A DNA stretch of 64,000 bases from Thermococcus aggregans (GCF_024022995.1 NZ_CP099582.1:310001-374000); one strand, 5' to 3'. Counted from the stretch's first letter, positions 5,261 through 49,122 are shown. The notes: generated from the sequence alone by a model not told the origin. Program-made: numbers and translations.

Positions 5261-5548
5261 ATGGGCTACACCATCTATTACCGCGTAAGCATCAAAGAGC
5301 ACGAAAAGGCATGTGCATTTGTTAAAAGAATCTGCAACGGCCTTAATTGGGATTGTGAAGTTAATAAGGGAGAGCTCATTATCAAACCGGCTACCGAAGA
5401 AGTAGAGCCTCTCGTAATTAAGAACGGAGAAGGATTCGTGAAAACTTACAAAAGAGAACCGTATACGTCGATTTACTTGCTACTGCTCTCTTCACTTTCA
5501 GCCTTTGGCTGTGTTGAAGTTTCTGATGATGAGGGTTTTGCTTTATGA
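5261..5548 (+). CDS. Conserved-looking small protein of unknown function
   Basis: The product is 95 aa if it starts at the ATG at 5261, which has GGGGATG six bases upstream; the ATG at 5255 would overlap that site. The sequence begins MGYTIYYRVSIKE and has mixed alpha/beta character with a hydrophobic stretch SIYLLLLSSLSAFGC near the C-terminus. I recognise no domain. Its last 76 bases overlap convergently with the end of the membrane-protein gene on the minus strand. Confidence 0.6.
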   Translation: MGYTIYYRVSIKEHEKACAFVKRICNGLNWDCEVNKGELIIKPATEEVEPLVIKNGEGFVKTYKREPYTSIYLLLLSSLSAFGCVEVSDDEGFAL

Positions 5549-6246
5549 ACTTCCAGCACTCTCCTCGGAATAGAGCTCCTGAATATCCTCTCTTCCACGA
5601 GAACCTTTACAATGTCCCCAACTTCAACTTCTTCTGCACTTTCGACCCAGTACTTGCCGGGCTTTACATTGGCCCTTATATCATCATGGACGTCTATCTT
5701 CACAAGTTCACCTTTTACTTCCTCTACAACCCCATAAGTCCAATCTCTGGTAAACTTTGATTTGTAGATGTGCCTAAATGCCAGCACCACTATAAAAATG
5801 AGTACCAAGTAAGCGTAGAAATAGTAGACGTTCTTTGCGAACCGCCTTACCAGAAGATATCCAAGAAAGGAGAGAAAGCCGATAGTTGTTAGCCCGTAAT
5901 AAAAGAATCTGTAAGGTTCAACTTCAATGAAGAACTCCCGGTTTTTTAAAATAGTATACCTAAGATAGAGGAAGTAAACAACAAAAGTCAAGGTCAAATA
6001 GAGCTCATTTCCAAAAAGGACTACCAATAATGAAAGCACGAGATAGAGGATAAAGGAGAGCTGAAGGTTTAAACTTAAAAGCTCATGAACTGTAAGTTCT
6101 CTCTTTATCAGCTTTTTAAGGATTTTGAATTTCGGAGGGTTTTTTGAGGGTTTCGGCTTTGCTATCTCCTTTAAGCATTTTTCGAGCCATTTTACTGATT
6201 TCTCAGCCGCTTCACCGACTTTATAGAAGATTTCATCAAAGTTCAT
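5473..6246 (-). CDS. Membrane protein, probable DUF2101 family
   Basis: This 257-aa protein is the last gene of the long minus-strand operon. After a charged N-terminus rich in Lys and Pro there are about four or five hydrophobic segments between residues 60 and 165. A soluble beta-rich C-terminal domain (about 175-235, with VKIDVHDDIRANVKPGKYWVE) and a Ser/Glu-rich tail follow. The ATG at 6246 has a perfect GAGGTGAT; the longer reading from 6270 has no such support. The domain assignment is from memory. A role in anchoring or assembling the surface proteins encoded upstream is inference from position. Confidence 0.7.
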   Translation of the reverse strand: MNFDEIFYKVGEAAEKSVKWLEKCLKEIAKPKPSKNPPKFKILKKLIKRELTVHELLSLNLQLSFILYLVLSLLVVLFGNELYLTLTFVVYFLYLRYTILKNREFFIEVEPYRFFYYGLTTIGFLSFLGYLLVRRFAKNVYYFYAYLVLIFIVVLAFRHIYKSKFTRDWTYGVVEEVKGELVKIDVHDDIRANVKPGKYWVESAEEVEVGDIVKVLVEERIFRSSIPRRVLEVHKAKPSSSETSTQPKAESEESSSK

Positions 6247-6256
6247 GATTATCACC

Positions 6257-9200
6257 TCAGCCACATGCATAGCCTTCTAGGAGATCGCACGCTGCCTGTT
6301 CTCCAAATATTGCTTCTGCAGTATAGGGATCAAGATAAAAGTCCGTATCAACTATAGGCGAACTATATCCACCGTTTGTTGATATTCCCAAAACTTTATA
6401 CGCTCTCTCATCATGTACCGGATACAAATATTCACCATCCAAATCTAAGTATACATAATCAACTGCCGTCTGGTTTATGCCCCTCAAAAAGGCAAGATTT
6501 GGAGGAAGGTTCCTTGGCAGTACCAAGCTAACAAGGCCAATTGGATACTTATATCCCCCATAAACAGCCTCTTGCATTCTTCTACTTAGCTCTTTGTAAT
6601 ATTCTCTATTCCTGTCACTACCCTCTAAACGCTCAAAGAACGATGGATAACCATCAATGCCAAAGTATCTCCAGTCTACAAGGCAATCAATAAATGGCTG
6701 GAGGTTATATGCCCTAGCGTTTCTCTCCCCTACAGCGGCTCCGACCTTTGATTCGCTTTCATTAAGAGTGACAGTCGCAACATGATAAGGATACTTTCCG
6801 ACAGCTATCCAATCGAAATATACCTCTAAATATACCTCTTGAGAGCTGTTAATAATTATTTGAACTTTCATAGGAGTTCCTTCAGGAATATCAGAAATCT
6901 GCGATAAAGAAAATCTGCCTGTATTATCTGTGAGATTCGTGGAGGTGTACGTGAAGTTAACTTCATAAGTGTAATACGCAGTGTAATCGATTGTAGCCCC
7001 ATTACTCGTCCCATTTTGTTCCCAATCTCTGAGTATCTTCAAAGATCCACTACTATCGAGATACTGCACAGAAGGAACTTCGCTTACATTGCTAATACTG
7101 TAGCTGAGCTTTGATTCGTCCAAATACTTTCTAACTGCTATCCAGTCGTAGTATGCCCAGTTATCATTTTTCTCGTTGTCCAAGACCAAATACATGTAAT
7201 AAAGAGGCTGTTGCACTTTCTGATTACCCTCGTTAACCCTATTTTTTGTAATATCATGGAATTTCACATTATTTACCTTCTTCTGGTCTACATAATAGAA
7301 CACTTGAACTTCATATGTATGAAACTTATTATCTCCTCTTGGGACATCAATATCCTCAACATCTCCGCTCCAGGATCTACGAATTGCCAAATAGTTCTCG
7401 TCACTATCCTTATTACCTGTGGTACTACCTGTATCCTCTCCAGCATCATCCGTAAATAGTAATAGCTGAGATGTTTTGTTTTCAGACCACTTGTCCTCAA
7501 TTCCAATTCCTGCGTCCCAATCTTTACCAATATCTCTAGGTCGCATTCTAAACCTCACTGAGTAATTTTCATAGAGTTCAATAAGCTTACTTCTCAAAGC
7601 GAGTAGGTTATTACCATTTTTTATTATTAGTGTTCCGTTGACTTGTACGATGTTATCTTCGATGTTATCTCTTTCTTCAGGTGGTATCTCCCATTTATCC
7701 TCCCATGTACTGTCCTCAAAATCGTCAAAAAACTCAAAAACTTGATCTCCTACTCCTCTTGTCATATTGCCTGTGTTGTACTCAATGTAAAAAATTGTGG
7801 GGGAGCCCTCAAGATCACTTCTAACCCATATCAAGGCCTCAGTCTCATTCCAGTATTCAATCCAGAAGGGCACCTCTTCAAAATAAGAATTATAGACTTT
7901 AATTTCTGCTTCAGCCAAGGAGCTATTGCTCTTTATTAATTGCAGGAGACTTTGATTAGTTATCTTTATCGGAATCTGAATATCTGCGTAGTCTGGAAGG
8001 TCGTCTTTGAATATCTCTACTTTTATCATATTTTCACCTTTGCTTGCTGGGGCTAGGGCTATTCCTCCACCCTCTCCCTCCATTTTATATCTCACGAATA
8101 TTGGATAATCGAACGAAGCCTTTGACTCCAAAACACTAGCGGTAGTATTGGGCCCGACAGTAAGAATGCTATCTGCATACGTAACATTTCCCAGCACTTC
8201 CCAATTAATCAAATCATAAAAATCATCAAAGAGATCAAAGAGATCATAGGGAGTACCCGGTGTAAGCCCTACAGGAGAGGTATCATAGTAAATAGCGTAT
8301 TCATCCGTATTTGCCTTCTTTATCCATATGTATATCCAATCATCTCCCCACTCTTCAATCCAGAAGGGAACGGGTGCACAAGTGGATTTTTCATAAATCT
8401 GTAGGGAAGCTAGAGTACCACTATGGTAGACATCCCCAAGTTCAGAAGAAGGAATTTTGAGTAAAACTATGCTCCCCGGATCACCTACCTCAACTGTAAA
8501 GTTCTTCCGATACCTATAGGTCGAAGAACACCACTTTTGTGTGCCTATTTCTTCTACGATCATTGCTGCAAAGTCCCCATCTCTAAAGACGTCCGTCGGA
8601 GATATTTTTGTGTTGTTTATGACTGTTGAATAGATTATAGGCCTATTATCTCCCGGGCTAGGTATTACATAGGATGAGCCAATGATATGTCCCAATATAT
8701 GAGGATCATCTATTGGTATGTAGCTCTTTCCAACGTATATCTTGTAGCTCTCCAGACGCTCTAGGGATGTAGTAACCGGAGCAGACAGTCTCCCGGAGTT
8801 ATACCCAAATCCTTCCAAAGCTATTATTGGCCTATTAATGATTGGGTAAGGATAATTGCACGCCCTAATAACCTGAGAGAACCCTCCATCAGTAAGATAC
8901 GCTATTAAGGGGTCTTCCATGTTCTCTATAGGCACTACTGCGTATACACTGTCAAGGCTTCCATTGTAAATCACTTTCCCAGAGAAGTCCTCAATGAGGA
9001 CTCGTGGTATTGAGGCGTTAACCACTATATGAAACGAGTCCAATGGGGCAACTGTTATTTCAAGTTCGTTTGCAAAATCACTTGCATTGGAGGGAAATAC
9101 GAGTACGTATCCTTGCTTTTCCAATTGTTCCCGCAGGGTGCTGAACCAGTCCTTTATAGTATAGCCTTCCATAAATTCCTTCGTTTTATTGTACTTGTCT

Positions 9201-9517
9201 AAATTTGTCTCAGAGCCTATGTAGGTTCCCTCCAGAATAAGATGCTCTATTGCCAAGCTTGCATTATCTATAAACTGCTTCTGGGTAACTACATAATCTA
9301 TAACCAAAGCAAGTGCTCTCCTAGTAGAGATTTCAAGCAAATTCTCAAAGTCCTCCTTAAAGTAGCCTACAACACGATAAGTTTTTTCCACCTGTAATCT
9401 TTCGCTTTGGGACTGAAGGATAGATGAGGAAATATCTTCATAAGTAGCCACGAGGAGAAGAATAGGGATTAAAAGCACCAAAACTACAGAGTTTAAGATA
9501 AAGCCTCTCCTCCGCAT
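6257..9517 (-). CDS. Large pilin-like surface protein with two DUF2341 modules and a lectin-like region
   Basis: At 1086 aa this is the largest product of the operon. It starts MRRRGFILNSVVLVLLIPILLLVA, a positively charged end and hydrophobic helix like those of archaeal pilin-type proteins. The rest is predicted extracellular, with many NxS/T sequons. Two DUF2341-like modules are visible by their cores VPFWIEEWGDDWIYIWIK (about residues 375-392) and VPFWIEYWNETEALIWVR (about 543-560). Each is followed by a YDT/EYNT segment and then a FDLFDDF or FEFFDDFED stretch that begins a concanavalin-like glycan-binding region. It overlaps the upstream gene at ATGA. Glycan binding is inference from domain families. 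Confidence 0.75.
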   Translation of the reverse strand: MRRRGFILNSVVLVLLIPILLLVATYEDISSSILQSQSERLQVEKTYRVVGYFKEDFENLLEISTRRALALVIDYVVTQKQFIDNASLAIEHLILEGTYIGSETNLDKYNKTKEFMEGYTIKDWFSTLREQLEKQGYVLVFPSNASDFANELEITVAPLDSFHIVVNASIPRVLIEDFSGKVIYNGSLDSVYAVVPIENMEDPLIAYLTDGGFSQVIRACNYPYPIINRPIIALEGFGYNSGRLSAPVTTSLERLESYKIYVGKSYIPIDDPHILGHIIGSSYVIPSPGDNRPIIYSTVINNTKISPTDVFRDGDFAAMIVEEIGTQKWCSSTYRYRKNFTVEVGDPGSIVLLKIPSSELGDVYHSGTLASLQIYEKSTCAPVPFWIEEWGDDWIYIWIKKANTDEYAIYYDTSPVGLTPGTPYDLFDLFDDFYDLINWEVLGNVTYADSILTVGPNTTASVLESKASFDYPIFVRYKMEGEGGGIALAPASKGENMIKVEIFKDDLPDYADIQIPIKITNQSLLQLIKSNSSLAEAEIKVYNSYFEEVPFWIEYWNETEALIWVRSDLEGSPTIFYIEYNTGNMTRGVGDQVFEFFDDFEDSTWEDKWEIPPEERDNIEDNIVQVNGTLIIKNGNNLLALRSKLIELYENYSVRFRMRPRDIGKDWDAGIGIEDKWSENKTSQLLLFTDDAGEDTGSTTGNKDSDENYLAIRRSWSGDVEDIDVPRGDNKFHTYEVQVFYYVDQKKVNNVKFHDITKNRVNEGNQKVQQPLYYMYLVLDNEKNDNWAYYDWIAVRKYLDESKLSYSISNVSEVPSVQYLDSSGSLKILRDWEQNGTSNGATIDYTAYYTYEVNFTYTSTNLTDNTGRFSLSQISDIPEGTPMKVQIIINSSQEVYLEVYFDWIAVGKYPYHVATVTLNESESKVGAAVGERNARAYNLQPFIDCLVDWRYFGIDGYPSFFERLEGSDRNREYYKELSRRMQEAVYGGYKYPIGLVSLVLPRNLPPNLAFLRGINQTAVDYVYLDLDGEYLYPVHDERAYKVLGISTNGGYSSPIVDTDFYLDPYTAEAIFGEQAACDLLEGYACG

Positions 9518-11598
9518 CAGTCTTCCCTCCAGACCCTTAGTGTTACTCGTATCGGCTTAATAGCTTTGGGAATTCCTTCCAAAGAAACAAAACTTATTTT
9601 TGTGCCTCCAATATCCACATCTATCGGATCATCCCACCCGTCTCCCCCGAGCTTCTTAAAAAGCGAAAGTATTGCATCATCAACTGCATATTCCTCAGGA
9701 GTTAAGTTTGCTACCGTTATGTTCATGTACCTTCCTTCAGTTATTGCTTGTGGGTCTCCTACAATTATGCTCCTATTTTTATCATCGTATTCATATTTGT
9801 ACGTGAGATTGTACGCAACAACTTCAGGGTATCCTTGTAGCAGGAAAGGCTTTATTTCTCCGTAAGGAACGTAAACTTCAATGGAATATACGAGCTCTCC
9901 TATACTGTAATTTTCAACCCGAGACTTCTGAATCTCGTTGCTCTCATTTAAGCTCATACCCACATAGTTTTCTCCCGGGACAAGGGCAGTTATTGCTTCA
10001 TTAGAGCTGTCTTTCATGTTATTAATTAATAGCCACCTCGCAGAAGTGAGAGGAGTTGACGACGAAGCATTGAACACTAAAGTCCAATTGGTGGATGATC
10101 CTGGAGAAACCGCCAATTTTGTAATCTTCGCAGAAGTGTCTAGAACAAAGTTAAATCTCGCCCACAAAGGAGTTGCGTATGAAGGCATGGTGACGTTCCA
10201 CACGAAGTCGTAATCACTCGAGGATACAAGGTTCGTGCTATTCACCTCTTCGAGTATGTCCATGGTGTACAAGGTTTTCGGAATATCCGGAGTGTATTCA
10301 ACCTTAATAAAAGAGCTCTCAGGCTCTAATTTTATAGACCCAGATGCATTGACTGTTATTTTGAACCATACATACTTTCTGGAAAGAGCATCAAACTCTC
10401 CATTATCATTATTTAAAGTCAGCCAGTACGATCCAGTAGTAGAATCATAAGTAAGAGTATATGGCCCCTTAACAAAGTAAGCACTCCCATTGGGAACAAT
10501 TATAGAAAGTTCAAGATTCTTAGGATTGGGATTCAACTTAACGTTTACCGTAACACTAGTAAGGTTTCCAGGAATGAAAATGCCTTTAACTGCTTCAAAT
10601 GAACCATTTGCCTCGATGCCGTCAAAGTAAAAGGTTTTTGGGTACTCTACAACGTTTAGCTTGGCAGTATCATAATAAAGGACTATATAACCGTTTGGCC
10701 GTATTCCAGCATTACTTGCATTTGAGATCACAATTTTGAATTCATGCTGTCTGAGATCCTCTTTTTCTCTCAAAATCTCCAACATATAACACTCCTGGGT
10801 ATTATTCGGATCAAAATCTTCCAGGAGATATGGAGGCCCATTTAAACCGCACTCCACTTTAACACCATCTATGAACAAGTTTATTGTAGAATTCTCATCA
10901 ATTGGTTCAAAGAACCACTTTACTCCAGCTACACTGGCATCTGGCGGCAATAGATTCTCTTCTTCATTAGGTACCAAAAATTCGAGAGTAATATTTGAAG
11001 AAGTTGAATTTGCAGCACCTGTAAAGTACATGTAGATGGCACGTCTACTAGTTAGGCGGGTAATGTACGCTCTTGCAACATAACCTCTGGGAGTCTGGTT
11101 AAATTCATACCCGGAAAGAATCAATGTTGCAGCAGAAACATCTCTTGCTTCCGAGTAACTGGTGGAGACGTTCCTTAGATAGGGGCTTGTATAATTTTCT
11201 ATTAAAAGCTCATAATTGTAGCCGTTCAATGTAATGCTTAGCAGGTATCCCAATATTTTCTCGGCTTTGTTTTTCAATCCTCTCTTTGGGAACACGGCAT
11301 CTAAAGACCAGTAAGTGGCAACGATTTCAAGAGGTGGCATTTCTGGAGAGACAAAATTTTCATCAATAATGCCTTCCACAGTCCAGTTTAACAGAACTTC
11401 TGGGGGAACAAGGTTTTTTAGAGGTATCGTTTTGTACATAGTTAAAAGATCCTCCGCAGTCAGTTTTTCCTGTTCTCTAAAATAAGTCCCATGAATGTTT
11501 GTATCTGTGGTAAAGACGCCCAAACTACTTATAAATACCATGACTAAGATTAAAGCCAGTAATGCATCGAGTGTAAAAATAAACGCTCTCCGCTTCAT
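9517..11598 (-). CDS. Pilin-like anchored surface protein
   Basis: The 693-aa product begins MKRRAFIFTLDALLALIL, a class III-like signal and membrane helix, and continues as a long Asn/Thr-rich, beta-strand-rich extracellular region with many NxT/S sequons. A DIDVDIGGT-like stretch occurs near the C-terminus. I recognise no enzymatic domain. Start and stop both overlap neighbours at ATGA, showing tight coupling in the operon. It is probably a structural component of the same surface assembly as its neighbours. Confidence 0.72.
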   Translation of the reverse strand: MKRRAFIFTLDALLALILVMVFISSLGVFTTDTNIHGTYFREQEKLTAEDLLTMYKTIPLKNLVPPEVLLNWTVEGIIDENFVSPEMPPLEIVATYWSLDAVFPKRGLKNKAEKILGYLLSITLNGYNYELLIENYTSPYLRNVSTSYSEARDVSAATLILSGYEFNQTPRGYVARAYITRLTSRRAIYMYFTGAANSTSSNITLEFLVPNEEENLLPPDASVAGVKWFFEPIDENSTINLFIDGVKVECGLNGPPYLLEDFDPNNTQECYMLEILREKEDLRQHEFKIVISNASNAGIRPNGYIVLYYDTAKLNVVEYPKTFYFDGIEANGSFEAVKGIFIPGNLTSVTVNVKLNPNPKNLELSIIVPNGSAYFVKGPYTLTYDSTTGSYWLTLNNDNGEFDALSRKYVWFKITVNASGSIKLEPESSFIKVEYTPDIPKTLYTMDILEEVNSTNLVSSSDYDFVWNVTMPSYATPLWARFNFVLDTSAKITKLAVSPGSSTNWTLVFNASSSTPLTSARWLLINNMKDSSNEAITALVPGENYVGMSLNESNEIQKSRVENYSIGELVYSIEVYVPYGEIKPFLLQGYPEVVAYNLTYKYEYDDKNRSIIVGDPQAITEGRYMNITVANLTPEEYAVDDAILSLFKKLGGDGWDDPIDVDIGGTKISFVSLEGIPKAIKPIRVTLRVWRED

Positions 11599-13082
11599 CT
11601 GTCATCCCACACAACCAGCCTTATTAAAGTTTCATCAAATTCAGGTTCAAGGAAAGGCTTAATATCGGGCACAAATTCAATACTCACGTCTTCCCTGCTC
11701 CAGCCCTCAAGAGAGTAGAACCATAGGGATATCAATTTACTTTTGGTATTCTCCAAAGGAAACAAATCCTCAAAAGGCACTGCTATTGTTCCGTTCTCCC
11801 CGTGGTACCTCTTCAGTTTTGGCTCATTATTCTCGTACCAAACAAGGGAAGCACTTAAATCAGTGGAGTTTCCATAAACAAAAATACCTCTAAGGCCTTT
11901 TTCTGAAGCTCCTATTAAAGTCATATTCCCATTCAATGTGGAGTTAACCTTAATTTTTACTATTACGTTCTTTGTTCCATACTCTTTATAGTATCCATAA
12001 AGGATTGGTTCTTCTTTGGACGGGCCAGAAGAAAGGTTGTAAATAAATTTTGTTACCGGGAAAACTCTGTAGACAGGTTCTGTCCAAGGAGATCTATCCA
12101 TTGAGGACTTTATCTTGTTCATATCACTTTCAAACGTTCCATTTATCATTGCTATCCTGTAAAGAGGTTTGTCTAAATCAAAAAGATTTCTAGCAGACTC
12201 ATATGTGAAATTAAGAGTGGGAAACGTACTGTCATAGCCCGAAATAGTTATGAAAACATTTCCTTGCCCGGTAAACTTGAAAATAAACGGACAATTTACA
12301 AAAGTTATTTTAAAGTTGCTCTGAGTAAGATCGTTCATATGAACTTCAAGCACTGTGCCAGGGGGGAGATATAATGGAGAGGGCTCGATATACCCCTGAC
12401 CTCTTTTTGCTTTTATCCAGACTGGGTCAACCGTTATGACTTTTAAGTAATAGATGCCCGTTTCCGGATTTAATTGGAGATTATTACCAGTAAGATCAGG
12501 CAAATCACAAATAGCCTCGTTTACATATGTAGCACCATTCAAGTTTCTGATCTCAATGTAACTTACTCTGAATTCCCCATTATCACTATCCGGATTGTCT
12601 CCAGTCTTGTTTGTGATATCAAGATTAACTCCCGGAGGATTTCCTCTCGGATTTGCAAAGGTTATGTTATCCAAATAAACCCTTGGAAACCTGCCAGAAA
12701 TATTAAGAGTGATATTTGAAATATAAACCTCAAGCAAAAAGTCCTTTCCACGAGCAAGCTGATTAAAAATATCCTTAAATTCCTCCTTTGATCTGTTCAG
12801 TGCAATTATCTTCTCATAGCTAAGGGCAAACGGATACTTTTTATCCCTCAATCCTACCATTTTAACACTACTCACATTGCTCTCCCAGTCCTCGGGATAA
12901 CCGGGACGCTTGGTCAAAACATCAAGCATGTTGTTGGCAATGTTCGCCCTATCGTACCAGTCCAAGAGGTTAGTTATCTCAGCCTTAATCATATCGTTCG
13001 TATTCATAACTACCCCCACAACCATGACAACGATTACAAGTGAAAGCAAGGCATCTATTGAAAGCAGTTGCCCCTTCTTCAT
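11595..13082 (-). CDS. Pilin-like anchored surface protein
   Basis: This 495-aa protein begins MKKGQLLSIDALLSLVIVVM; KKGQ followed by a hydrophobic helix is the type III signal pattern processed by an archaeal prepilin peptidase. The remainder is predicted extracellular, rich in Asn, Ser and beta-strand patterns with many sequons. The ATG has GGTGGAGAGG directly upstream and overlaps the previous stop by four bases. No known domain beyond the N-terminus was recognised. Confidence 0.72.
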   Translation of the reverse strand: MKKGQLLSIDALLSLVIVVMVVGVVMNTNDMIKAEITNLLDWYDRANIANNMLDVLTKRPGYPEDWESNVSSVKMVGLRDKKYPFALSYEKIIALNRSKEEFKDIFNQLARGKDFLLEVYISNITLNISGRFPRVYLDNITFANPRGNPPGVNLDITNKTGDNPDSDNGEFRVSYIEIRNLNGATYVNEAICDLPDLTGNNLQLNPETGIYYLKVITVDPVWIKAKRGQGYIEPSPLYLPPGTVLEVHMNDLTQSNFKITFVNCPFIFKFTGQGNVFITISGYDSTFPTLNFTYESARNLFDLDKPLYRIAMINGTFESDMNKIKSSMDRSPWTEPVYRVFPVTKFIYNLSSGPSKEEPILYGYYKEYGTKNVIVKIKVNSTLNGNMTLIGASEKGLRGIFVYGNSTDLSASLVWYENNEPKLKRYHGENGTIAVPFEDLFPLENTKSKLISLWFYSLEGWSREDVSIEFVPDIKPFLEPEFDETLIRLVVWDDR

Positions 13083-13558
13083 CCTCTCTCCACCTTTACC
13101 TCTATTCTCACAACTTTCCCCCCATAAATTAAACTGCCAGACGAGTTTGTAAACCTAAAGCTTCGAATGAGATCTTTCTCAATAAAGTCTTTTATCGTTT
13201 CATTTAGATCGGCAATATTGGCCACGGAGGAAAATGGAGTGGTTATGTTTATGGTTATATTAACGGCGCTTTTACTTTCCTCCGATTTTAGGGTTTTGAT
13301 TGCCAAGTGGGGGTTTCCTTGAGCTTTATGAATCTCTTCCAGCATTGGGTTTAGTATTTGGTAGGGCTCTTCATCACTCATTACACCCATGTTTAGATAC
13401 GCGATTGCCTTTGATGCAGAGCTTCTTACAGAGCTAACTATAGCTATGTTTGTGTTGTTCTCCGTGTAGGCAGGCACGATTAGGATTAACCCTATGAAAA
13501 TTACCGAGAGGATAAATACCATCTCAATTGCCGTTTGTGCTGTTCGTGATGTTGACAT
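13079..13558 (-). CDS. Small pilin-like protein
   Basis: The product is 159 aa from the ATG at 13558, which has AGGTGAT seven bases upstream; the ATG at 13570 abuts that site and is unlikely. It starts MSTSRTAQTAIEMVFILSVI: a short hydrophilic leader, a conserved-looking glutamate five residues after the presumed cleavage zone, then a membrane helix. That is the layout of type IV pilins. The C-terminal half has NITINIT sequons. It lies out of frame over the end of the preceding pilin-like gene (35-base overlap). Confidence 0.75.
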   Translation of the reverse strand: MSTSRTAQTAIEMVFILSVIFIGLILIVPAYTENNTNIAIVSSVRSSASKAIAYLNMGVMSDEEPYQILNPMLEEIHKAQGNPHLAIKTLKSEESKSAVNITINITTPFSSVANIADLNETIKDFIEKDLIRSFRFTNSSGSLIYGGKVVRIEVKVERG

Positions 13559-13961
13559 AGAGCATATCACCTATTCTCACAGTTTTTATCCAAAAACTCT
13601 CTCCACTATAAACACTTATCGAGGCATTCGCTATTGGGACGGTTGAGTTTTTCACTATCCAGTAGTTTTTTCCACTCACATTAGCATTTACGGTTATTTT
13701 GTTATTAGTTCCGTTAAATATTATTGTAAACTTTGCATCCTTTATTTGGGGCGCCTCTTCCTTAAGGCTGTATCCTTCCCCAACAGCATAAACTTTTGCA
13801 GTGTGGTCAACTATTTCAGCCGAAAAGACCCTAACCTTTGCCATCACATCAAAGCTCTCAGCATGGGCTATTTCGCTACTTGATAGCTGTATGAGATTCA
13901 GCACCGTTAAAGTTACCAGCACAAATGCAAAAAGAAAATCAAGGCTTACCTGACCCCTCAT
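13524..13961 (-). CDS. Small pilin-like protein with class III signal
   Basis: This 145-aa protein starts MRGQVSLDFLFAFVLVTLT, a clear class III signal: basic residue, Gly-Gln cleavage context, an acidic residue at about +5 and a hydrophobic helix. The rest is short, beta-rich and contains several NxS/T sequons. The ATG at 13961 has GGTGG upstream and begins two bases past the previous stop; the GTG at 13970 is disfavoured. It is a good candidate for a major or minor subunit of an extracellular filament. Confidence 0.8.
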   Translation of the reverse strand: MRGQVSLDFLFAFVLVTLTVLNLIQLSSSEIAHAESFDVMAKVRVFSAEIVDHTAKVYAVGEGYSLKEEAPQIKDAKFTIIFNGTNNKITVNANVSGKNYWIVKNSTVPIANASISVYSGESFWIKTVRIGDMLYVNITNSTNGN

Positions 13962-13962
13962 G

Positions 13963-14667
13963 CTAACCACCGGGGTTAATGTTTATCCTGAGCTCTCCGC
14001 TCGTAGAGTTAAACACCCAAGTTTCATTTCTATCTGGGTTCCATTCAACAACTATTTCCAGCGTTTTGGGGAGAATTTCGGGGGGAAGTAGTATCCCATT
14101 ATAGGGGGTTATGTTTAGTATTAAGATTGAGGGTGAATACGTAGTACCATTATACTCCACACTAATCCCCGCAACGCTGTAAATACTGGCATTGCTGAGG
14201 TCTTTTCCATAAAGAGAACCAGCAAGAAAGAAATTCTTTTTTAAAGTGTCTGTTTCACTTTGAATTGCGGTCATGTTTGCTGAGAGAGTATCCGTACTTG
14301 TGTTATAAGAGGTAAAGAGAATAGTCTCGTTAAACTCAAGTATTGCTACATAAGTCCCATTCTGATAACCAACGACAATGTAGGGCTTATTATCCATCCC
14401 AAATGCCCTTGTAAGAAAATACTCATCGTTTAGATATCTAAACGTGAAGTATTCAGTTGCCTTTGCACCCGGGCCTTGGGCATAAACCTGAGAAACTGCG
14501 TTGGAAACGGTATTTGCAAAGAGCTTCGCCTCCTCACTAACCTGAATCCTCAACATATCCGAAGACTGCTCGCTTGAGAACGTTATATTCCTAATTGAGA
14601 AGGTTAGAAGCACCATGAACAGCACGAAAATAAAGAGAAACTCAAGCGATATTTGTCCTTTTTTCAT
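13963..14667 (-). CDS. Pilin-like protein with class III signal
   Basis: The product is 234 aa from the ATG at 14667, which follows GGTGAG by about four bases; an in-frame ATG at 14679 lacks a good site. It begins MKKGQISLEFLFIFVLFMVL, the textbook KKGQ-(S)LEFL form of archaeal class III signals. The mature part is beta-rich with sequons (NGTYVAI, NASIYS, NGTTYS). It is the first of six successive pilin-like or anchored genes in the operon. Confidence 0.82.
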   Translation of the reverse strand: MKKGQISLEFLFIFVLFMVLLTFSIRNITFSSEQSSDMLRIQVSEEAKLFANTVSNAVSQVYAQGPGAKATEYFTFRYLNDEYFLTRAFGMDNKPYIVVGYQNGTYVAILEFNETILFTSYNTSTDTLSANMTAIQSETDTLKKNFFLAGSLYGKDLSNASIYSVAGISVEYNGTTYSPSILILNITPYNGILLPPEILPKTLEIVVEWNPDRNETWVFNSTSGELRININPGG

Positions 14668-14702
14668 TTTTCTCACCATTCACTGATAATAAGGACTGCA
14701 AG

Positions 14703-15320
14703 TTATTTAACACTTTCTTTATTTTCTTCCTTTACAACCCCAAAAAGGTTACCTCCGAGCTTTTTAATTGAGATTCCAAAGTAGTCATAGCTGAAAATCT
14801 TAAACTTATACTGTTCCGCATTTAGTTCATACTTCTTCAAAAGCTCCCGCAGTTTATCGATAAAAAGCTGGGTGAGCTGGTAGTAGCTCATATCGAGGGC
14901 ATGCTTTTTGTAATCGAGCAAGAACACCACAAGGGGAAGGGCACTCAGCGGTATAAGCACCCATGGTTCGGAATAGATGATAGTAAGGCCAATCCCTAAA
15001 GCAATGGAAGCCCCGATGAAAGCTAGGGCAAGCTTAAAGGTGTTTTTAATTCGTTTCATATCTTTAACTTTGTTCTCCCAGATCGTAAGAAGAGAGGGAT
15101 TGTAAAAGTCAAATGCCGTGTGTCTTTTTCCCTTTGCAATTCTCTGCTTTATTAAATCGTCCCAGTCGTCCTCGTAGTATATCACTTCTCCCCTGTTCTT
15201 TGCTCTCTCAGCGTCTATGGAGGAGATTATCCTTATCATGTCCTCGGCACTTTCTTTGGCTATGTGGGAATAAACTTCTTTTTCATTGAGCTCCAAAGCA
15301 ACTTCAACCGAGTCTTTCAT
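14703..15320 (-). CDS. Two-helix membrane protein in the pilin/CetZ operon
   Basis: The 205-aa protein starts at the ATG at 15320, behind AGGTGAGG; a TTG at 15347 would lengthen it without support. A soluble N-terminal part of about 90 residues with a Lys/Arg-rich stretch is followed by two adjacent membrane helices (about 95-140, containing ASIALGIGLTIIY and WVLIPLSALPLVVFLL). A helical, charged tail completes it. It overlaps the end of the CetZ-like gene by 17 bases. It may connect the cytoplasmic GTPase to the membrane complex, which is inference from topology and position. Confidence 0.68.
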   Translation of the reverse strand: MKDSVEVALELNEKEVYSHIAKESAEDMIRIISSIDAERAKNRGEVIYYEDDWDDLIKQRIAKGKRHTAFDFYNPSLLTIWENKVKDMKRIKNTFKLALAFIGASIALGIGLTIIYSEPWVLIPLSALPLVVFLLDYKKHALDMSYYQLTQLFIDKLRELLKKYELNAEQYKFKIFSYDYFGISIKKLGGNLFGVVKEENKESVK

Positions 15321-16407
15321 CGGCCTCACCTGAATAAATATCGTCAAAGTCCGGCAGTCCGGTTAAAAGCTCTTTTTTCTTTGTTTCAGCCTCTTCCTTT
15401 GCTTTCATGAATGATTGAGCGTATTTTTTGGCCGTTATGACTATGTCCTCTATGCTCTTGCTCTCGTATATGCCGCTCAAAAGCGTGACAACCTCTATCT
15501 CCTTCTCTCTCGGATCTGGATAAAAGCCGCGGAAAATCTGCTTGCCCTTTATCTTTCTTGTGAGGTATTCAAGGGCTTCAAAGATGTCTTTCGCCTTTAA
15601 TAGCTCCGGAGGGCCGTGAATGGCAACCAAACCATACAAAGCGGATTCTATATTGGCCTCAAGGTAAAGACCTTCATTCTCAAAGGATTTCAAGATCAGA
15701 CGGGAGAGGTTCTTAACCTTGCTGGCATCAGCTTTTGCATATCCAACTGTGGCAAAGCTACCAAAGGCGTTTAGGACAAACTTAAGGTCACTTGCATCAA
15801 GGGTCTGCTCTCCGGGAACATCTATTAAAGCCAAAAGGGAAGCTATTCTTTCAACTATTGTGTAGTTTATCTTTTCATAAGCTTTTGAGATGTCCTCAGA
15901 GCTTTCCTTCAGTTTGTTGTTGTCTATCGCTATTATCGAATCGACCACTTTGGATAGCTTGTCTATGGTTATTGCCGCGTTTATTGTGGGCCTTATGCCT
16001 TCTTCCTTTAGGGGCAAAGCACCTATTGCAACCACAAGCGAATCCGGGTACTCCTCCTTTAGGGCTTCTGCAAGAACTGGAGCTCCTCCAGCCCCTGTTC
16101 CACCTCCAAAGCCAAAGGTAAGGAAGAATACATCAACGTCGCTGTAGCCAACCATGGAGCTTATTTTTTTCATTATTAGGGGCAGGTCTCTTTTAACGGC
16201 CTCTCTTCCCAACACTGGGTTGGCATTTACCCCTTTTCCTCCGGTTAGGCTCTCTCCAACTAGTATCCTCCTATCTTGGGGGATGTGCTTTAGATACTCC
16301 AAATCACCTTTGGAAGTATTTACCGCAAGTGCCTCAAAATTAACCAATGCAAATAGGTCAGCTATTTTCGTCCCGCACTGACCGACTCCAATGATTAAAG
16401 CCCTCAC
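15304..16407 (-). CDS. CetZ/FtsZ-family tubulin-like GTPase
   Basis: This 367-aa protein belongs to the tubulin/FtsZ superfamily. The N-terminal nucleotide fold begins IIGVGQCGTKIAD. The tubulin signature GGGTGAG is at about residues 102-108, and a T7-like loop LDASDLKFV with two acidic residues for GTP hydrolysis is near 203-211. It lacks the classic FtsZ C-terminal tail and ends in a charged helix. The start is GTG with GAGGTGA upstream. It is second in an operon of secreted and pilin-like proteins, so a role in surface organisation or shape is more likely than division. That is inference; archaeal CetZ proteins are known to act in cell shape and motility. Confidence 0.82.
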   Translation of the reverse strand: MRALIIGVGQCGTKIADLFALVNFEALAVNTSKGDLEYLKHIPQDRRILVGESLTGGKGVNANPVLGREAVKRDLPLIMKKISSMVGYSDVDVFFLTFGFGGGTGAGGAPVLAEALKEEYPDSLVVAIGALPLKEEGIRPTINAAITIDKLSKVVDSIIAIDNNKLKESSEDISKAYEKINYTIVERIASLLALIDVPGEQTLDASDLKFVLNAFGSFATVGYAKADASKVKNLSRLILKSFENEGLYLEANIESALYGLVAIHGPPELLKAKDIFEALEYLTRKIKGKQIFRGFYPDPREKEIEVVTLLSGIYESKSIEDIVITAKKYAQSFMKAKEEAETKKKELLTGLPDFDDIYSGEADERLG

Positions 16408-16414
16408 AGCAGCT

Positions 16415-18658
16415 TCACCTCACAAATTCTGCCTTTAGTTCTCCAAGCTCAACGATGCCGTTTTGATTTTTGTCTTCATAGGTAACAACACAGGCAACAC
16501 CACTGAGGTATTTGACAATGTTAGATGCAAAGAAAACTTTAACGGCACTGCCTAAATTCCTCGGGTATAGGATAAAGAGGATGTATCCCTTGCTCGTTTT
16601 TCCCGGGACTACCAGGAAGGTGTTGTCTCTCTTATAGCTCTCTCCGTTTAGATAAATGCTCTCGTTGTCCACCTTAAGCTCGATATATGGGTTGTATTTG
16701 GAAAGATCAAATTCTGTAAGATCGACTAACACAATGTAATTGCCGTCACCGATCTCTTTAAACTGCTCAACTGTCAAATTGGTTCCAAACAAACTGTCAA
16801 GGGAATTCTTCACTGAAACCGCAACTTTCTCCCTTCCAAATGTGTAGAGTATCTTGAAGTTTCCTTCGGGGAGTGCTCTTACCACTTCGTAGAGATTCAC
16901 TGGCTTTGGAAGCTCTTCGAAGGTGGAGAAATAGAGAGTCGCAAGGGCTGAATCAACAACACTGCTTCCCCAAAGGTTGTTTCTTCTCTTAGGCAACAAC
17001 CACTTGAGGGTTTCTTGCCTGTAATCAATACCAAACGCATAGAGGACTTCCGTAGCCCGTATGGTAAGTTCAACGCTCGGCTGTCCTTGATACATTAAAA
17101 CCCCAACTATATAGCTCTCTTTGATATTTGGCCATCCTCCATCCTCGGTTCTTTGTTCAAGAAGCCAATTTAGATGCTTTTCAACTTCTTGTCTTGTTAC
17201 CAGAGGCTCCAGTGCTTCAAGAACTTCAATCGTAGTTGAGACTTCAGAGGGGAAAAACCTTGTATAGTATTTGGTCGTTATTACCGTTCCCCAGCCTTCC
17301 GTGGGAAAAGACAGAAGCCATTCCTTTGCCTTGATGATGTCCCCATCTTGGGGAGAAACTCCCAAAGCTAGGAGCGCTTTAATTGCTAGGGCAGTGTCAT
17401 ATGGTTGTAAGCCCAGGACGTCCCCCCATGCCACATTTTCCTTTTTGAGGCTCTTTATAAAGGCTATGTGCTTCGCTCTTTCGCTCTCATTAACCAGATT
17501 GAACTCCAGAAGGGTCAACAGATTATAGATATAAGGCGGGTATAGCTCTCCCCTTTCAGATGATATCTCCATGTTTTCGTCAATCCTTTTCTTCACCCAT
17601 CCCAAACCTTTCTCTATACTTTCGTCCATGAAATAACATCTTTTGAGGGCCTTTAAAACATAATACGTAGCCCTATCCGTAGAAGAGAAGCCAACAATGT
17701 ACGGCCATCCCCCATCCTCGTTTTGTACCTTTTCTAATTCTGAGCATGATGCCTCAAAAGGGGTTTCTAGCTCAGGCATTAATCCCCCACTAACCTCCGC
17801 AAAGCTCAAAATAGCAAGGGCAGATGTAACAAACACTTCCCTTCCCACTAGTTCTCCCGGTTTGTTGGCCCAATAAACAAGGCTTTCGTTCTTTTCTTTC
17901 AAATCTTCGAGTGTGGCGAGTAATTTTGCTGTTTCAAAAGTAAGCCCCTCGTATAGAAGGAGAGCATAGGTAAGAAACGCTTGCTCCTTAACGGTAATCT
18001 CCGGGGAATTAACTAAATCCCGAGCTTCCTCTACTAATCCAAGAGAAATGTAGCCAACGGCATGGTAAGCCAAAAGCTTAAGGGCCACTGCCTCTCCTTT
18101 ACGGAGTCCATAGGGCTCATTTTCCTCAAGATATTTAATGGCGCTCCGGATGTATGGGTGATCCTTTGAGTACCCGTTCTCACCAAGTGCCCAGACTGCC
18201 ATAACTGTAGGATAGAACTCGGTTAGAGTGTTTGGAACGTATCCCCACCCTTCTCCATTATGCGAGTTAATTAAGAATTCAACGCCCCTCTTAATGGTGC
18301 GGGAGATTGAAGAAGCTTTCTCGCCCTCATATAGGCTAAGGGCTTTTTTCAAGGCGATCACTGCATAGGATGTATCGACTACATTGCTCACGCTCCCTTC
18401 ATAATACCCCCAGCCACCATCAGGGTTTTGCCTTTTTAGGAGAGCGTCAACAAAGTAATCAACGTCACTTATCGTAATATTCTCTACTCCAGAATAGCTA
18501 GACGCTAAAGCCATTAGCGAGAGACTAAGCTGTTGAGTAGTTTTCATGTAATCCCTTCCCTCTAAAAGGAACCTCGCTGATGCGTCAAGAATAGATTCTG
18601 CAGCTACGTAAGGAAGCACAATGATCATGATAAGCAAAACAGGAGCAATCCTCCTCAT
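16415..18658 (-). CDS. Secreted prenyltransferase/squalene-cyclase-fold repeat protein
   Basis: The 747-aa product begins with a cleavable-type signal peptide (MRRIAPVLLIMIIVLPYVAA). Repeated alpha-alpha-barrel motifs follow: QNPDGGWGY, GEGWGYVP, QNEDGGWPY, TEGWGTV and QRTEDGGWPN. These are the QxxDGGW-type repeats of prenyltransferase/squalene oxidase folds, also found in secreted glycan- or protein-binding proteins. The usual cyclase DxDD acid motif is not obvious, so it is probably not an enzyme of that class. A C-terminal segment DKNQNGIVELGEL resembles a dockerin/EF-hand loop. The ATG at 18658 is preceded by GAGGTG. It is the first gene of the operon. Confidence 0.75.
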   Translation of the reverse strand: MRRIAPVLLIMIIVLPYVAAESILDASARFLLEGRDYMKTTQQLSLSLMALASSYSGVENITISDVDYFVDALLKRQNPDGGWGYYEGSVSNVVDTSYAVIALKKALSLYEGEKASSISRTIKRGVEFLINSHNGEGWGYVPNTLTEFYPTVMAVWALGENGYSKDHPYIRSAIKYLEENEPYGLRKGEAVALKLLAYHAVGYISLGLVEEARDLVNSPEITVKEQAFLTYALLLYEGLTFETAKLLATLEDLKEKNESLVYWANKPGELVGREVFVTSALAILSFAEVSGGLMPELETPFEASCSELEKVQNEDGGWPYIVGFSSTDRATYYVLKALKRCYFMDESIEKGLGWVKKRIDENMEISSERGELYPPYIYNLLTLLEFNLVNESERAKHIAFIKSLKKENVAWGDVLGLQPYDTALAIKALLALGVSPQDGDIIKAKEWLLSFPTEGWGTVITTKYYTRFFPSEVSTTIEVLEALEPLVTRQEVEKHLNWLLEQRTEDGGWPNIKESYIVGVLMYQGQPSVELTIRATEVLYAFGIDYRQETLKWLLPKRRNNLWGSSVVDSALATLYFSTFEELPKPVNLYEVVRALPEGNFKILYTFGREKVAVSVKNSLDSLFGTNLTVEQFKEIGDGNYIVLVDLTEFDLSKYNPYIELKVDNESIYLNGESYKRDNTFLVVPGKTSKGYILFILYPRNLGSAVKVFFASNIVKYLSGVACVVTYEDKNQNGIVELGELKAEFVR

Positions 18659-18741
18659 TCTTAGCACCTCTAAATAGCTTTTATCAATTATCTAATTGAG
18701 TATTACTCATTCAAAACAAATAAAGGTTGCGGAAAAAAGAG

Positions 18742-37465: not shown

Positions 37466-38416
37466 ATGCTTCGAGTTGGAGTAGTCGGCGTTGGGAACAT
37501 GGGCTTCCATCATGCGAGGATTTATTCGGAATTAGCGAAAGAAGGAAAGATTGAACTCGTTGGAGTTGCTGACGCAAACTTAGAGCGAGCCAAAGAGGTT
37601 GCTTCCCAATTCAGAACAAAGGCTTTTGGAGATTACAGGGAGCTTGTAAAAGAGGGAATAGACGCCGTTAGCATTGCCGTTCCAACTTCTCTCCACAAAA
37701 AGGTTGCTCTGGAGTTTATTGAAAACGGTGTTAGCGTTTTGGTGGAGAAGCCCATTGCGGAGAGCATCGAGAGTGCCCAGGAGATAATAAGGGCTGCAAA
37801 AAAGAATGATGTCACTTTAATGGTCGGGCATGTGGAGAGGTTTAATCCGGCGGTACTAAAGCTGAAGGAGAGCATAAGCAACGGACTTCTGGGTAAGATA
37901 GTTACAATGAACGCCAAAAGGGTCGGGCCCATGGTTGTTAGGATAGCCGATGTGGGCGTAATAATTGATCTGGCCGTTCATGACATCGATGTTATGAGCT
38001 TTCTTGCGGATTCCAAGGTAAAAGAAGTGTATGCGAAAGCGAGAAATGTAAAGCATCCATCTGGAGTTGACGATTACGCTCTCATACTCTTAAGCTTTAA
38101 GCACAATGTCGATGGTATCATAGAGACCAACCGCTTAACGCCCCATAAGACGAGAACCCTAAACGTCGTGGGCACTGAGGGCATAGCTTACCTCGACTAC
38201 ATCAACCAGACGTTGCAGATATACGATGAAAAATGGGTCAGGAAGGCCAAGATTCAAAAGCAAGAGCCCTTGAGAATCGAGATTGAACACTTCATTAACT
38301 GCGTGGTCAACAAAGAGAGACCACTAGTGAGTGGAGAAGACGGGTTGCATGCACTTGAAGTTGCAGTTAAAGCCCTCGAAAGTGCAAATAAAGACGAGGT
38401 AGTAAAACTAAGGTGA
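37466..38416 (+). CDS. Gfo/Idh/MocA oxidoreductase (WbpB-like)
   Basis: A 316-aa NAD(P)-dependent dehydrogenase with the N-terminal Rossmann motif [16 protein letters not shown], the EKP motif LVEKPIAE and the catalytic region LAVHDIDVM. In the WbpA/B/E/D pathway WbpB oxidises C3 of UDP-GlcNAcA. The ATG at 37466 has AGGTGGTC upstream. A TATA-like TTTATATAT at about 37401-37409 could start a transcript carrying it and the dehydrogenase, which overlaps its stop region. Confidence 0.86.
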
Positions 38417-38421
38417 TTAAA

Positions 38422-42583: not shown

Positions 42584-42961
42584 TCATTTATCCTCCAACA
42601 GCTCAATGAAGGCAACGGCCCCTTTGTTTATTAGTATTCTACGGCCATCTTCGGTCTTTAAAGTGATAAAGTACGGGTCCTTGGGCACGAATAAGCCCAT
42701 AAACATGTCCCCAGTGATGAGCTTGATTTTTACCTTCTTTTCCTTAACGTTTTCTCCTTCTTCCTTGTCGCCCTTATTACCGCTTTCACGGACGTCTGCT
42801 TCTTTAGTAAAAGCTCGTTCTTTCCCAGAAGAATGATAATGAACTTCATCGGAATGATCTTGCTGAATATGGGTCTCTATAAGCTTCTTTGACATCGACT
42901 TAAACCCGCAAACCGGGCACTCCCACATGCCCGTATCCGAATCAAACCTCAGCTCTATCAT
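42584..42961 (-). CDS. C2H2 zinc finger fused to an Lsm-like domain
   Basis: The 125-aa product starts at the ATG at 42961, preceded by GAGGTG. Residues about 10-35 form a zinc finger (WECPVCGFKSMSKKLIETHI, completed by QQDH). A charged linker follows. The last 50 residues read KIKLITGDMFMGLFV then ITLKTEDGRRILINKGAVAF, which fits the two-part Sm/Lsm fold pattern (G-x-x-F-x-G, then I-x-L and D-G). An RNA-binding role is inference. It stands alone between toxin-antitoxin pairs. Confidence 0.6.
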   Translation of the reverse strand: MIELRFDSDTGMWECPVCGFKSMSKKLIETHIQQDHSDEVHYHSSGKERAFTKEADVRESGNKGDKEEGENVKEKKVKIKLITGDMFMGLFVPKDPYFITLKTEDGRRILINKGAVAFIELLEDK

Positions 42962-43051
42962 CCCAAACACCTCTCTGCCCGCTTCTGAATTATTTTTTGA
43001 TAAATAACTTGTCATAATAATGTTTTTGGCTTGAACACTAAGGCCCAAAAG

Positions 43052-46348: not shown

Positions 46349-46372
46349 TCTCTCAATTTTTAGGTGATATGT

Positions 46373-47512
46373 ATGGTCTCCAAGCCACACGGTGGAAAGC
46401 TGATTAGGAGAATAGCCGCCCCCAAGACAAGGGATAGGATTTTGAGCGAGCAGCATGAGTATCCTTCTGTTCAAATCGACCATGGAAGGGCCATAGATTT
46501 AGAGAACATCGCCCACGGCGTTTATTCTCCTTTAAAGGGGTTTTTAACGAGGGACGATTTTGAGAGCGTTCTGCACCACATGCGCCTCAGCGACGACACC
46601 CCTTGGACGATTCCAATAGTTCTGGACGTTGAGAAGCCGGACTTTGAAGAGGGCGATGCGATTCTGCTTTACTATGAGGATATTCCAATAGCGAGGATGC
46701 ACGTTGAGGAGATATACACCTATGACAAGAAGGAATTTGCCCAGAACGTTTTCAAGACAACCGACCCAGAGCATCCTGGGGTTGCAAGGGTATATTCAAT
46801 GAAGGACTACCTCGTCGGCGGTGAGATTGAGCTCCTCAACGAGCTTCCAAATCCATTTGCCAAATACACATTGAGGCCAATCGAAACGAGGGTTCTTTTC
46901 AAGGAGCGCGGCTGGAAGACGATAGTTGCCTTCCAGACTAGAAACGTTCCCCACCTCGGCCACGAGTACGTGCAGAAGGCAGCACTAACTTTCGTCGACG
47001 GCCTCTTCATAAACCCCGTTCTGGGCAGAAAGAAGAAGGGCGACTACAAGGACGAGGTCATAATCAAAGCTTATGAGGTCCTTTTTGAGCACTACTACCC
47101 GAAGGACGCGGCCACTTTGGCCACTGTTAGGTACGAGATGCGCTACGCCGGGCCGAGGGAAGCGATCCACCACGCCATAATGAGGAAGAACTTCGGTGCA
47201 ACTCACTTCATCGTCGGAAGGGACCACGCGGGAGTTGGCGACTATTACGGGCCTTACGAGGCATGGGATCTCTTCGACGAGTTCCCGGACTTGGGAATAA
47301 CTCCAATGTTCATAAAGGAGTCCTTCTACTGCAGGAAGTGCGGCGGAATGGTCAACGCAAAGATATGCCCGCACGACAAGGAGTTCCACGTAAGAATAAG
47401 CGGCACGAAGCTTAGGAAGATGATAATGGCTGGAGAGCAGCCGCCAGAATACATGATGAGGCCTGAGGTCTTCGAAGTAATAAAGAACTTCGAGAACCCG
47501 TTTGTGGAGTGA
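46373..47512 (+). CDS. sat: ATP sulfurylase
   Basis: The 379-aa enzyme makes adenosine 5'-phosphosulfate from sulfate and ATP. QTRNVPHLGHEY is the first nucleotide-binding motif; GRDHAGVGDYYGPY and ISGTKLRKMI are further signatures. A zinc-site region CRKCGGMVNAKICPH is typical of thermophilic ATP sulfurylases. The ATG at 46373 has GGTGAT upstream. Length is normal for the archaeal single-domain form. It heads the cluster with APS kinase at 50511. Confidence 0.95.
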   Translation: MVSKPHGGKLIRRIAAPKTRDRILSEQHEYPSVQIDHGRAIDLENIAHGVYSPLKGFLTRDDFESVLHHMRLSDDTPWTIPIVLDVEKPDFEEGDAILLYYEDIPIARMHVEEIYTYDKKEFAQNVFKTTDPEHPGVARVYSMKDYLVGGEIELLNELPNPFAKYTLRPIETRVLFKERGWKTIVAFQTRNVPHLGHEYVQKAALTFVDGLFINPVLGRKKKGDYKDEVIIKAYEVLFEHYYPKDAATLATVRYEMRYAGPREAIHHAIMRKNFGATHFIVGRDHAGVGDYYGPYEAWDLFDEFPDLGITPMFIKESFYCRKCGGMVNAKICPHDKEFHVRISGTKLRKMIMAGEQPPEYMMRPEVFEVIKNFENPFVE

Positions 47513-47557
47513 GCAAATGTTATATCTTTCCTTTACAATTCTTTACTGGTGAGCTAG

Positions 47558-47737
47558 ATGGAGGAGATTGAGGTCGTCTACGAGAATGGGGTGTTCAAAC
47601 CTCTCAAGAAAGTGAAACTTAAGGAGGGCACCCATGGGAAAGTGATAGTGAAGATGGGAATAGCAGATGTTATAGAGAACTTCAGCAGGAAAGTGAAGAA
47701 GGATGCCTTACAGGAGTTTCTGGAGGAGAGGAGATGA
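47558..47737 (+). CDS. DUF104 (AF2212-like) antitoxin
   Basis: A 59-aa protein, [20 protein letters not shown], then [13 protein letters not shown]. This is the DUF104 antitoxin pattern (YENGVxKPL). It overlaps the PIN toxin by four bases (ATGA). The helical tail [16 protein letters not shown] would bind the toxin. Found by direct translation. Confidence 0.88.
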
Positions 47738-48213
47738 TCGTAGTAGACACCTCTGTGTTTATTGACGCACTCTTTGAATACAAAAAAGATAGAACCGAGA
47801 TAGCCAAAAACTTTTTCAGAAAAATTCAAGAGAAAAATATCTCTATTGTAGAGCCAGACGTATTTAAGATAGAACTTATAGGACAACTAGTTAGGAGAAT
47901 GCCAAAAGAAGAAGCAATGACGGTGTATGAATTAATTATTGAGAATGTAGAAATTAGCGAGACAAATAAGCTTAAAGAAGTGTCTTTTGGAATAGCTTTT
48001 CAAACTGGATGCAGAGCGATAGATTCATTTTACATTGCAATTTCTCATTCAACGAATAGCCTCCTCGTATCAAATGACAAGTTCCAAGTTGAAAGTGCAA
48101 GGAAGTACGGCGTTAAAGCGTTTTATCTTTTAGAAGAGTTCGATCAACTTGAGAGGATCTTAAATAAGAGCGGTGATCAAAGTGAACCTGATAATTCACC
48201 ATTGGGACACTGA
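47734..48213 (+). CDS. PIN-domain toxin (VapC-like)
   Basis: The 159-aa PIN protein begins [20 protein letters not shown], with [27 protein letters not shown] and [12 protein letters not shown] giving the acidic cluster. GGAGGAGAGG precedes the ATG. Its last 32 bases overlap the next gene, so the pair was inserted between sat and the DHH gene without breaking either. Confidence 0.87.
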
Positions 48214-49117: not shown

Positions 49118-49122
49118 TTGGA

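Follow-up and report, generated by a model that had tools for sequence, protein, structure and literature searches.

In the Thermococcales, the gene for the tubulin-like GTPase CetZ is known to sit among pilin genes. Brown and Duggin (2023) found pilins adjoining cetZ in every one of the 15 Thermococcales they examined and suggested that CetZ serves as a scaffold (PMC9856176), and Makarova et al. (2016), citing Szabo 2007, described "clade 1 loci" holding these genes (PMC4858521). For Haloferax, there is evidence implicating CetZ1 in how the archaellum, another type IV filament, and chemotaxis proteins are assembled and positioned at the poles (PMC11621097). Here we analyze the cetZ operon of Thermococcus aggregans in a window of 64,000 nucleotides (nt), bases 310,001-374,000 of a closed chromosome of 1,889,107 bases. 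Since both earlier papers report the CetZ-pilin linkage, the core observation made by a first-pass annotation of this window is already known. Two points are new: the genes for the pilus motor are at another site in the genome, and the putative tip proteins, which are predicted to bind sugars, have been exchanged among species whose CetZ barely changes.

Taken as a whole, the evidence is best explained, and we think rather probably, by an operon that encodes the tip or initiation half (g4-g9) of the one type IV pilus in the genome, plus a cytoskeletal accessory module. The system is thus a known one, and the present analysis sharpens its likely partner motor, the organization of its tip, and its exchangeable head.

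The cetZ operon and its conservation

Ten minus-strand open reading frames span 5473-18667 of the window. In order of transcription, g1 to g10, they encode a toroid protein, CetZ, a membrane protein, three small prepilins, three large prepilin-type proteins and a DUF2101 protein. Gene starts were assigned automatically; that of g1 is an ATG at 18658, preceded by a GAGGTG ribosome-binding site. The first-pass annotation had described ten overlapping minus-strand genes. Number and strand stand, but not all of the genes overlap: g1 and g2 are 7 nt apart and g3 and g4 are separated by 23 nt. Two membrane proteins had also been called, and both are present (g3 and g10).

For comparison we used the cetZ region of 60 further Thermococcales genomes, picked for contiguity. 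Median intergenic gaps over these loci run from -26 to +7 nt, the exception being g3/g4 at 39 nt. Upstream of g1 on the minus strand (18717-18733) is a putative BRE/TATA-like promoter element, ccgcaacCTTTATTTG, assigned by consensus only, with no mapped start; relatives carry a counterpart of the TATA-type element, GGAAAAAGTTTATTTATTC, at the equivalent site. With such short or negative spacing across 60 relatives and a conserved TATA-type element before g1, the ten genes likely share one transcript.

Gene order and strand are kept in 60 of the 60 loci, apart from g1 and g5, which are missing in two (L070 and L073), and from a few loci where g5 or g6 is too diverged for detection. The gene grouping is therefore not a matter of chance. 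As L070 and L073 keep the remaining operon, the toroid protein must be dispensable. More widely, a close CetZ copy is found in 89 of 94 Thermococcales genomes, the remaining five being fragmented assemblies. It had been suggested beforehand that GTPase homologues lying apart from the pilin-like genes in most relatives would speak against a functional unit. The comparison gave the opposite result.

Minor prepilins and the g9 protein

The three small prepilins are g4 (13963-14679; likely start 14667), g5 (13524-13970; likely start 13961) and g6 (13079-13558), all on the minus strand like the rest of the operon, with the N-terminal motifs MKKG|QISLE, MRG|QVSLD and SRTA|QTAIE, respectively. They are followed by the large minor prepilin g7 (11595-13082; MKKG|QLLSID), which has a conserved N-terminal helix, and by two large prepilin-type proteins, g8 (9517-11598; KRRA|FIFTLD) and g9 (6257-9517). 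The canonical [GA]|Q cleavage site is present in g4-g7. For g4, whose Pfam class III signal match (7e-05) falls just under the curated cut-off, the automatic cleavage-site finder scored all but 26 of 61 sequences; the N-termini were then read by eye, and all carry [GA]|Q with an acidic residue at +5. All scored g5-g7 sequences combine Q at +1 with an acidic residue at +5 or +6. In g8 the residue at +1 is F or Y, and the acidic residue, at +6, is again retained in every scored sequence. The g9 protein also has F or Y at +1, and in 61 of 61 sequences its first eight positions hold no acidic residue. The six class III signal or anchored proteins of the first-pass annotation are thus borne out for g4-g7, while g8 and g9 deviate at +1 and g9 also lacks the acidic residue.

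With at least five minor pilins and a DUF2341 protein, the operon has the content described for a clade 1 pilus. The DUF2341 match in g9 (2.4e-13) is the sole one in the genome. The window copy of g9 has two such domains; across loci there are 0-3 copies, in g9 only and never in g7 or g8. The predicted structure of g9 begins with a long helix (residues 2-79), followed by beta domains. Residues 595-798 match concanavalin-A (ConA)-like lectins and GH43 accessory domains (Z ~16, root-mean-square deviation 3.2 over 174 residues), and this lectin-like domain has mostly good local confidence.

The g9 protein therefore combines a pilin-like helix with the absence of an acidic residue at +5, as do tip-initiating minor pilins of the GspK/PilA kind. 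Indeed, the same residue is missing from GspK and Streptococcus sanguinis PilA, both of which have been assigned to the tip or the start of the filament (PMC5207764, PMC9934059). A ConA-like lectin domain also occurs in PilC, a modular pilin of S. sanguinis (PMC9934059). Because of the missing acidic residue, the long helix and the lectin fold, we liken g9 to a modular lectin-bearing tip pilin. A position at the tip and the binding of sugars would follow from this likeness and from the structural model.

A separate motor locus

Profile search of the operon's proteins revealed no secretion ATPase or platform protein. Elsewhere, this genome encodes exactly one PF00437 secretion ATPase, at 470,376 (all 35 candidates scored), which is interrupted by an intein, two PF00482 TadC/FlaJ-type platform proteins, at 473,606 and 474,430, and one PF01478 prepilin peptidase, at 1,409,888. 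The motor locus, ~145 kb from the operon, has the order DUF515 protein, secreted protein, ATPase, TadC, TadC. Conservation of this locus extends to 20 relatives, in one of which no secreted protein is detectable. A scan for prepilin N-termini found none in the 20 kb around this genome's motor nor in the 20 related loci; as a positive control, the same scan finds five in the window. The motor locus thus brings no minor pilins and the operon brings no motor; on the simplest reading, the two look like halves of one type IV pilus. At the genome level the components of a clade 1 pilus (ATPase, two TadC proteins and prepilin peptidase) are present, though outside the operon; the ATPase itself is probably of clade 1, judging by its two TadC genes and by the adjacent DUF515 gene in common with Methanocaldococcus jannaschii.

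The first-pass annotation had proposed a cytoskeleton-linked surface machine, distinct because the operon has no ATPase or FlaJ-like gene. The link holds insofar as a cytoskeleton-type GTPase is locked into the pilin-like operon. The argument for a separate machine fails, given the motor found elsewhere in the genome.

An alternative is that the six prepilin-like proteins undergo motor-independent assembly, or form a pseudopilus-like anchor organized by CetZ, without the remote ATPase. The absence of motor genes from the operon favors this, as does the distance between the two loci, which are not neighbors in any of 41 closed genomes. However, the canonical class III sites of g4-g7 and their acidic residues at +5 or +6 are features of motor-assembled filaments, and the genome's sole motor has no minor pilins of its own. 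Moreover, a split of this kind has precedent in Methanococcus maripaludis, where the pilin genes (epdA, epdH, epdI and DUF2341) and epdJKL are in separate clusters that both yielded hits in one transformation screen (PMC10133366). We consider motor-independent assembly improbable, and favor a single pilus encoded at two loci.

The prepilin scan also picked up three adjacent genes ~13 kb from the motor locus (~483.8-485.3 kb; L008 3793-5333), which encode small class III proteins of 164, 155 and 125 residues, with the N-termini KGQGSLEYLFM, KGQGALEYLFM and KAQGSLEYSAM. They could be the major shaft pilins. The ATPase intein is ~520 residues long and follows GHNG (L007 9701-13042; G000:C1 ~469.7-473.0 kb). 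In relatives the ATPase open frame falls into two length classes (~590-735 and ~1,000-1,230 residues), so some species probably carry the intein and others lack it.

Independence from the archaellum

Class III signal peptides are present in the operon and CetZ1 affects archaella in Haloferax, which would suit an operon that belongs to the archaellum. However, this genome has neither archaellin nor a second secretion ATPase. Archaellin (PF01917) is absent from four genomes of three genera (G000, which is that of the window, G076, G017 and G087) and present in the six other genomes tested; G000 and G076 have a single secretion ATPase, that is, no second (FlaI) ATPase. The operon is kept in all four archaellin-free genomes. 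It is therefore not bound to the archaellum, and we regard membership of that machine as extremely improbable. That the system is distinct from the archaellum, as first proposed, thus finds support, though from these archaellin-free genomes and not from a missing motor. Such naturally archaellum-free species would permit clean deletion of cetZ, g3 or the ATPase gene.

Exchange of g7-g9

The presumed tip proteins g7-g9 vary far more than CetZ and g3. Over the loci compared, CetZ is 82-95% and g3 49-89% identical to the window copy, the most conserved pair among the operon proteins, while g7-g9 average 36-40%. Between species whose CetZ proteins are at least 97% identical, the radical-SAM neighbor, CetZ and g3 are mostly 85-99% identical and g7-g9 often 15-45%. 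The boundaries can be seen in the DNA of one pair (L063 and L065): 7.3 kb at 92% identity runs through g1-g5, little if any similarity can be detected over the next ~6.3 kb, across g7-g9, and within g10 the identity returns to 89-93%. Eight close pairs were compared over g7. Identity in its first 50 residues, which form the pilin helix, is 92-100% for six pairs and 55-56% for the other two; over the remainder of the protein it is 27-39% for seven pairs and 59% for the eighth. The exchanged cassette thus begins within g7.

Pairwise identities over 54 loci tell the same story. Their rank correlation (Spearman) with the core genes is 0.02 for g7, -0.01 for g8 and 0.04 for g9, against 0.70 for g3 and 0.65 for g10. 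Saturation alone does not account for this lack of correlation. Between L060 and L079, which belong to different clades (core 87-88%), full-length identity is 71% in g8 and 77% in g9. Between the sisters L060 and L038 (core 94-95%) it is 51% over one quarter of g8 and 33% over two thirds of g9. These pairwise identities and DNA breakpoints, on which the case for horizontal transfer rests, indicate that g7-g9 are exchanged between Thermococcales species. A further Thermococcus pilin family, arCOG04026, has been listed in an independent survey as having a variable region (PMC9425974).

The types of g8 and g9 are coupled. A short g9 (359-377 residues) always accompanies a long g8 (843-871 residues), in 8 of 8 cases against 0 of 53. 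Since the two switch together, g8 and g9 appear to be adapted to one another, which would be expected if they were partners in a tip complex. On the core tree the short/long g9 type changes at least 5 times; 5 changes, set against a shuffled mean of 6.75 and minimum of 4, are in themselves no proof of horizontal transfer. The pairing of short g9 with long g8 had also suggested that the DUF2341 domain hops between the two genes, which we rejected given its confinement to g9.

Going further, it is conceivable that the GTPase and its membrane partner g3 organize a lectin-tipped pilus whose co-adapted g7-g9 cassette passes between species by recombination, as an exchangeable recognition head for adhesion, choice of DNA-uptake partner or virus escape. 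We offer this tentatively. If true, hyperthermophiles would have a recognition system in this swapped cassette, which would also become a candidate receptor or adhesin.

CetZ and its neighbor g3

The product of g2 (15304-16407) matches Tubulin (PF00091; 1.1e-31, 111.1 bits, cut-off 33) and CetZ_C (PF21011; 3.6e-17, 62.8 bits, cut-off 21.6); against the FtsZ equivalog model it scores 130 bits and does not reach the cut-off of 295. Together with the locus comparison, these matches confirm a CetZ/FtsZ-like GTPase within an operon of pilin-like surface proteins, as first annotated. The protein can be aligned to solved FtsZ/CetZ-like chains. Its GGGTGxGG glycine loop and the catalytic acid of the T7 loop (DxSDLK) are conserved across 61 sequences, leaving the GTPase motifs intact. 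At the C terminus, a nearly invariant LLxGLPDFdD element is followed by a variable tail, an arrangement reminiscent of the short conserved tail of FtsZ.

The next gene, g3 (14703-15320), starts inside cetZ or just downstream. It is single copy in the same 89 of 94 Thermococcales genomes as CetZ and missing from the same five; outside the order it is absent from the rest of the class, two weak partial hits aside, and it was only found beside cetZ. The protein has a near-invariant N-terminal domain, probably cytosolic, and a predicted membrane hairpin. No known fold could be assigned: a hit to the SLATT domain was weak and far below cut-off, and Foldseek against the PDB returned nothing under E 0.26. 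By its position and conservation, g3 is the natural candidate for a membrane tether of CetZ, and probably acts as one.

A different role for CetZ, in cell shape or envelope growth, would make it merely co-transcribed with the pilins, the link being regulatory and not mechanical. Haloferax CetZ1 does control rod shape as well (PMC11621097), CetZ is far more conserved than the pilins, and in several other orders the CetZ families have no pilus linkage (PMC9856176). Against this, linkage is kept in all 60 loci with the order-specific g3 between CetZ and the pilins, and a second CetZ-pilus linkage has been described for haloarchaeal cetZ2 (PMC9856176). On balance a shape function of this kind seems unlikely, though somewhat less so than motor-independent assembly. 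The mechanism we prefer, that CetZ scaffolds or positions the pilus machine, has about even chances of being right. The question is in any case narrowed, with the operon tied to a single type IV pilus and not to the archaellum, CetZ as an accessory and g3 as its obvious partner. For CetZ function outside the haloarchaea, these order-wide linked genes are the best lead.

A model for the operon

In the model that we favor, g4-g8 would enter the membrane as prepilins, be processed by the single prepilin peptidase and build a priming complex with g9. Lacking an acidic residue to neutralize the N-terminus of the next subunit, g9 would start or cap the filament. The extracellular parts of g7-g9, including the lectin-like domain, would then lie at the pilus tip and might attach to a surface or to another cell. 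The drive would come from the distant motor (one ATPase, two TadC proteins and the DUF515 protein), and the shaft would be made of the separate small class III pilins. CetZ, anchored to the membrane through g3, would act as a cytosolic scaffold that places or stabilizes the machine.

Several observations weigh against this model. The CetZ and motor loci lie 31-970 kb apart in the 41 closed genomes, and what joins them is gene content. In 12 of the 61 loci no DUF2341 domain was detected. The lectin assignment is a fold match on a model of moderate overall confidence (predicted TM-score 0.44), for which reason the arrangement of domains in g9 is not reliable. The fold of g3, the putative partner of CetZ, has no recognized relative. 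Finally, M. jannaschii has DUF515 and DUF2341 and gave no CetZ_C or DUF2101 hit. As the same type of motor appears to work there without CetZ, CetZ is not a core mechanical part, and would instead be an accessory in pilus placement, number or stability.

The g1 and g10 proteins

The secreted repeat protein noted in the first-pass annotation is g1 (16415-18658), at the head of the operon; more exactly, it is a squalene-cyclase-type alpha/alpha toroid (repeats, 2.8e-16). The catalytic DxDD motif is found in 0 of 59 sequences, and we rejected a squalene or oxidosqualene cyclase. Toroid repeats without DxDD suggest that g1 is probably a surface protein that has borrowed the fold. Two allele classes of g1, 80-82% and 45-47% identical to the window copy (L025, L027, L028 and L031 compared with the window), occur where CetZ is ~95% identical. 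They do not match the g8 classes, which points to a second, separately exchanged surface gene.

The last gene, g10 (5473-6270), encodes a DUF2101 membrane protein (3.7e-79). None was found in 14 control genomes, and its identity tracks the core genes as given above; both fit a membrane component of the base.

Other features of the window

On the plus strand, 38413-41169 encodes a 918-residue UDP-sugar dehydrogenase frame with an apparent intein of several hundred residues, which starts near CFARDEFVFLEKDGIEPL and ends at VHN|C. A small protein at 42584-43048 (minus strand) seemingly joins a C2H2 zinc finger to an Sm-like domain. A sulfate-activation cluster at 46364-51802 (plus strand) comprises sulfate adenylyltransferase, a DHH phosphoesterase, an alkaline-phosphatase-family protein, adenylylsulfate kinase and a TauE/SafE-type permease. 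At 54575-56345 (plus strand) is an IS607-type pair, a serine recombinase with a MerR-like N-terminus followed by a TnpB-like protein.

Comparison with known systems

With the published Thermococcales cetZ/pilus cluster, the operon shares CetZ (arCOG02202), a squalene-cyclase-like protein (arCOG03396), five to six pilins, envelope proteins and a DUF2341 protein. It differs from the "clade 1 loci" of Makarova et al. (PMC4858521) in that the motor is at least 31 kb away in all 41 closed genomes. In the available portions of PMC9856176 and PMC4858521, we found no mention of g7-g9 exchange, g8-g9 coupling, loss of the acidic residue in g9 or the order-specific g3. The clade 1 Epd pilus of M. maripaludis, needed for natural transformation (PMC10133366), likewise has split clusters, a DUF2341 protein and minor pilins. 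In contrast to the Thermococcales operon, which has both CetZ and DUF2101, no CetZ is reported for Methanococcales (PMC9856176).

Haloarchaeal CetZ1 and CetZ2 belong to the same tubulin branch as g2; cetZ2 adjoins a type IV pilus cluster in two orders and CetZ1 affects the positioning of archaella. The cetZ2 cluster has its own PilB2/PilC2 motor, whereas the Thermococcales operon has none. At the tip, the closest parallels are the PilABC complex of S. sanguinis and the GspHIJK complex (PMC9934059, PMC5207764), with which the operon shares one subunit without the acidic residue at +5, modular pilins with ConA-like lectin domains and a tip complex encoded in one operon. S. sanguinis has the lectin module on one subunit and lacks Glu5 in another, whereas here g9 combines the two features; the likeness is drawn from such features.

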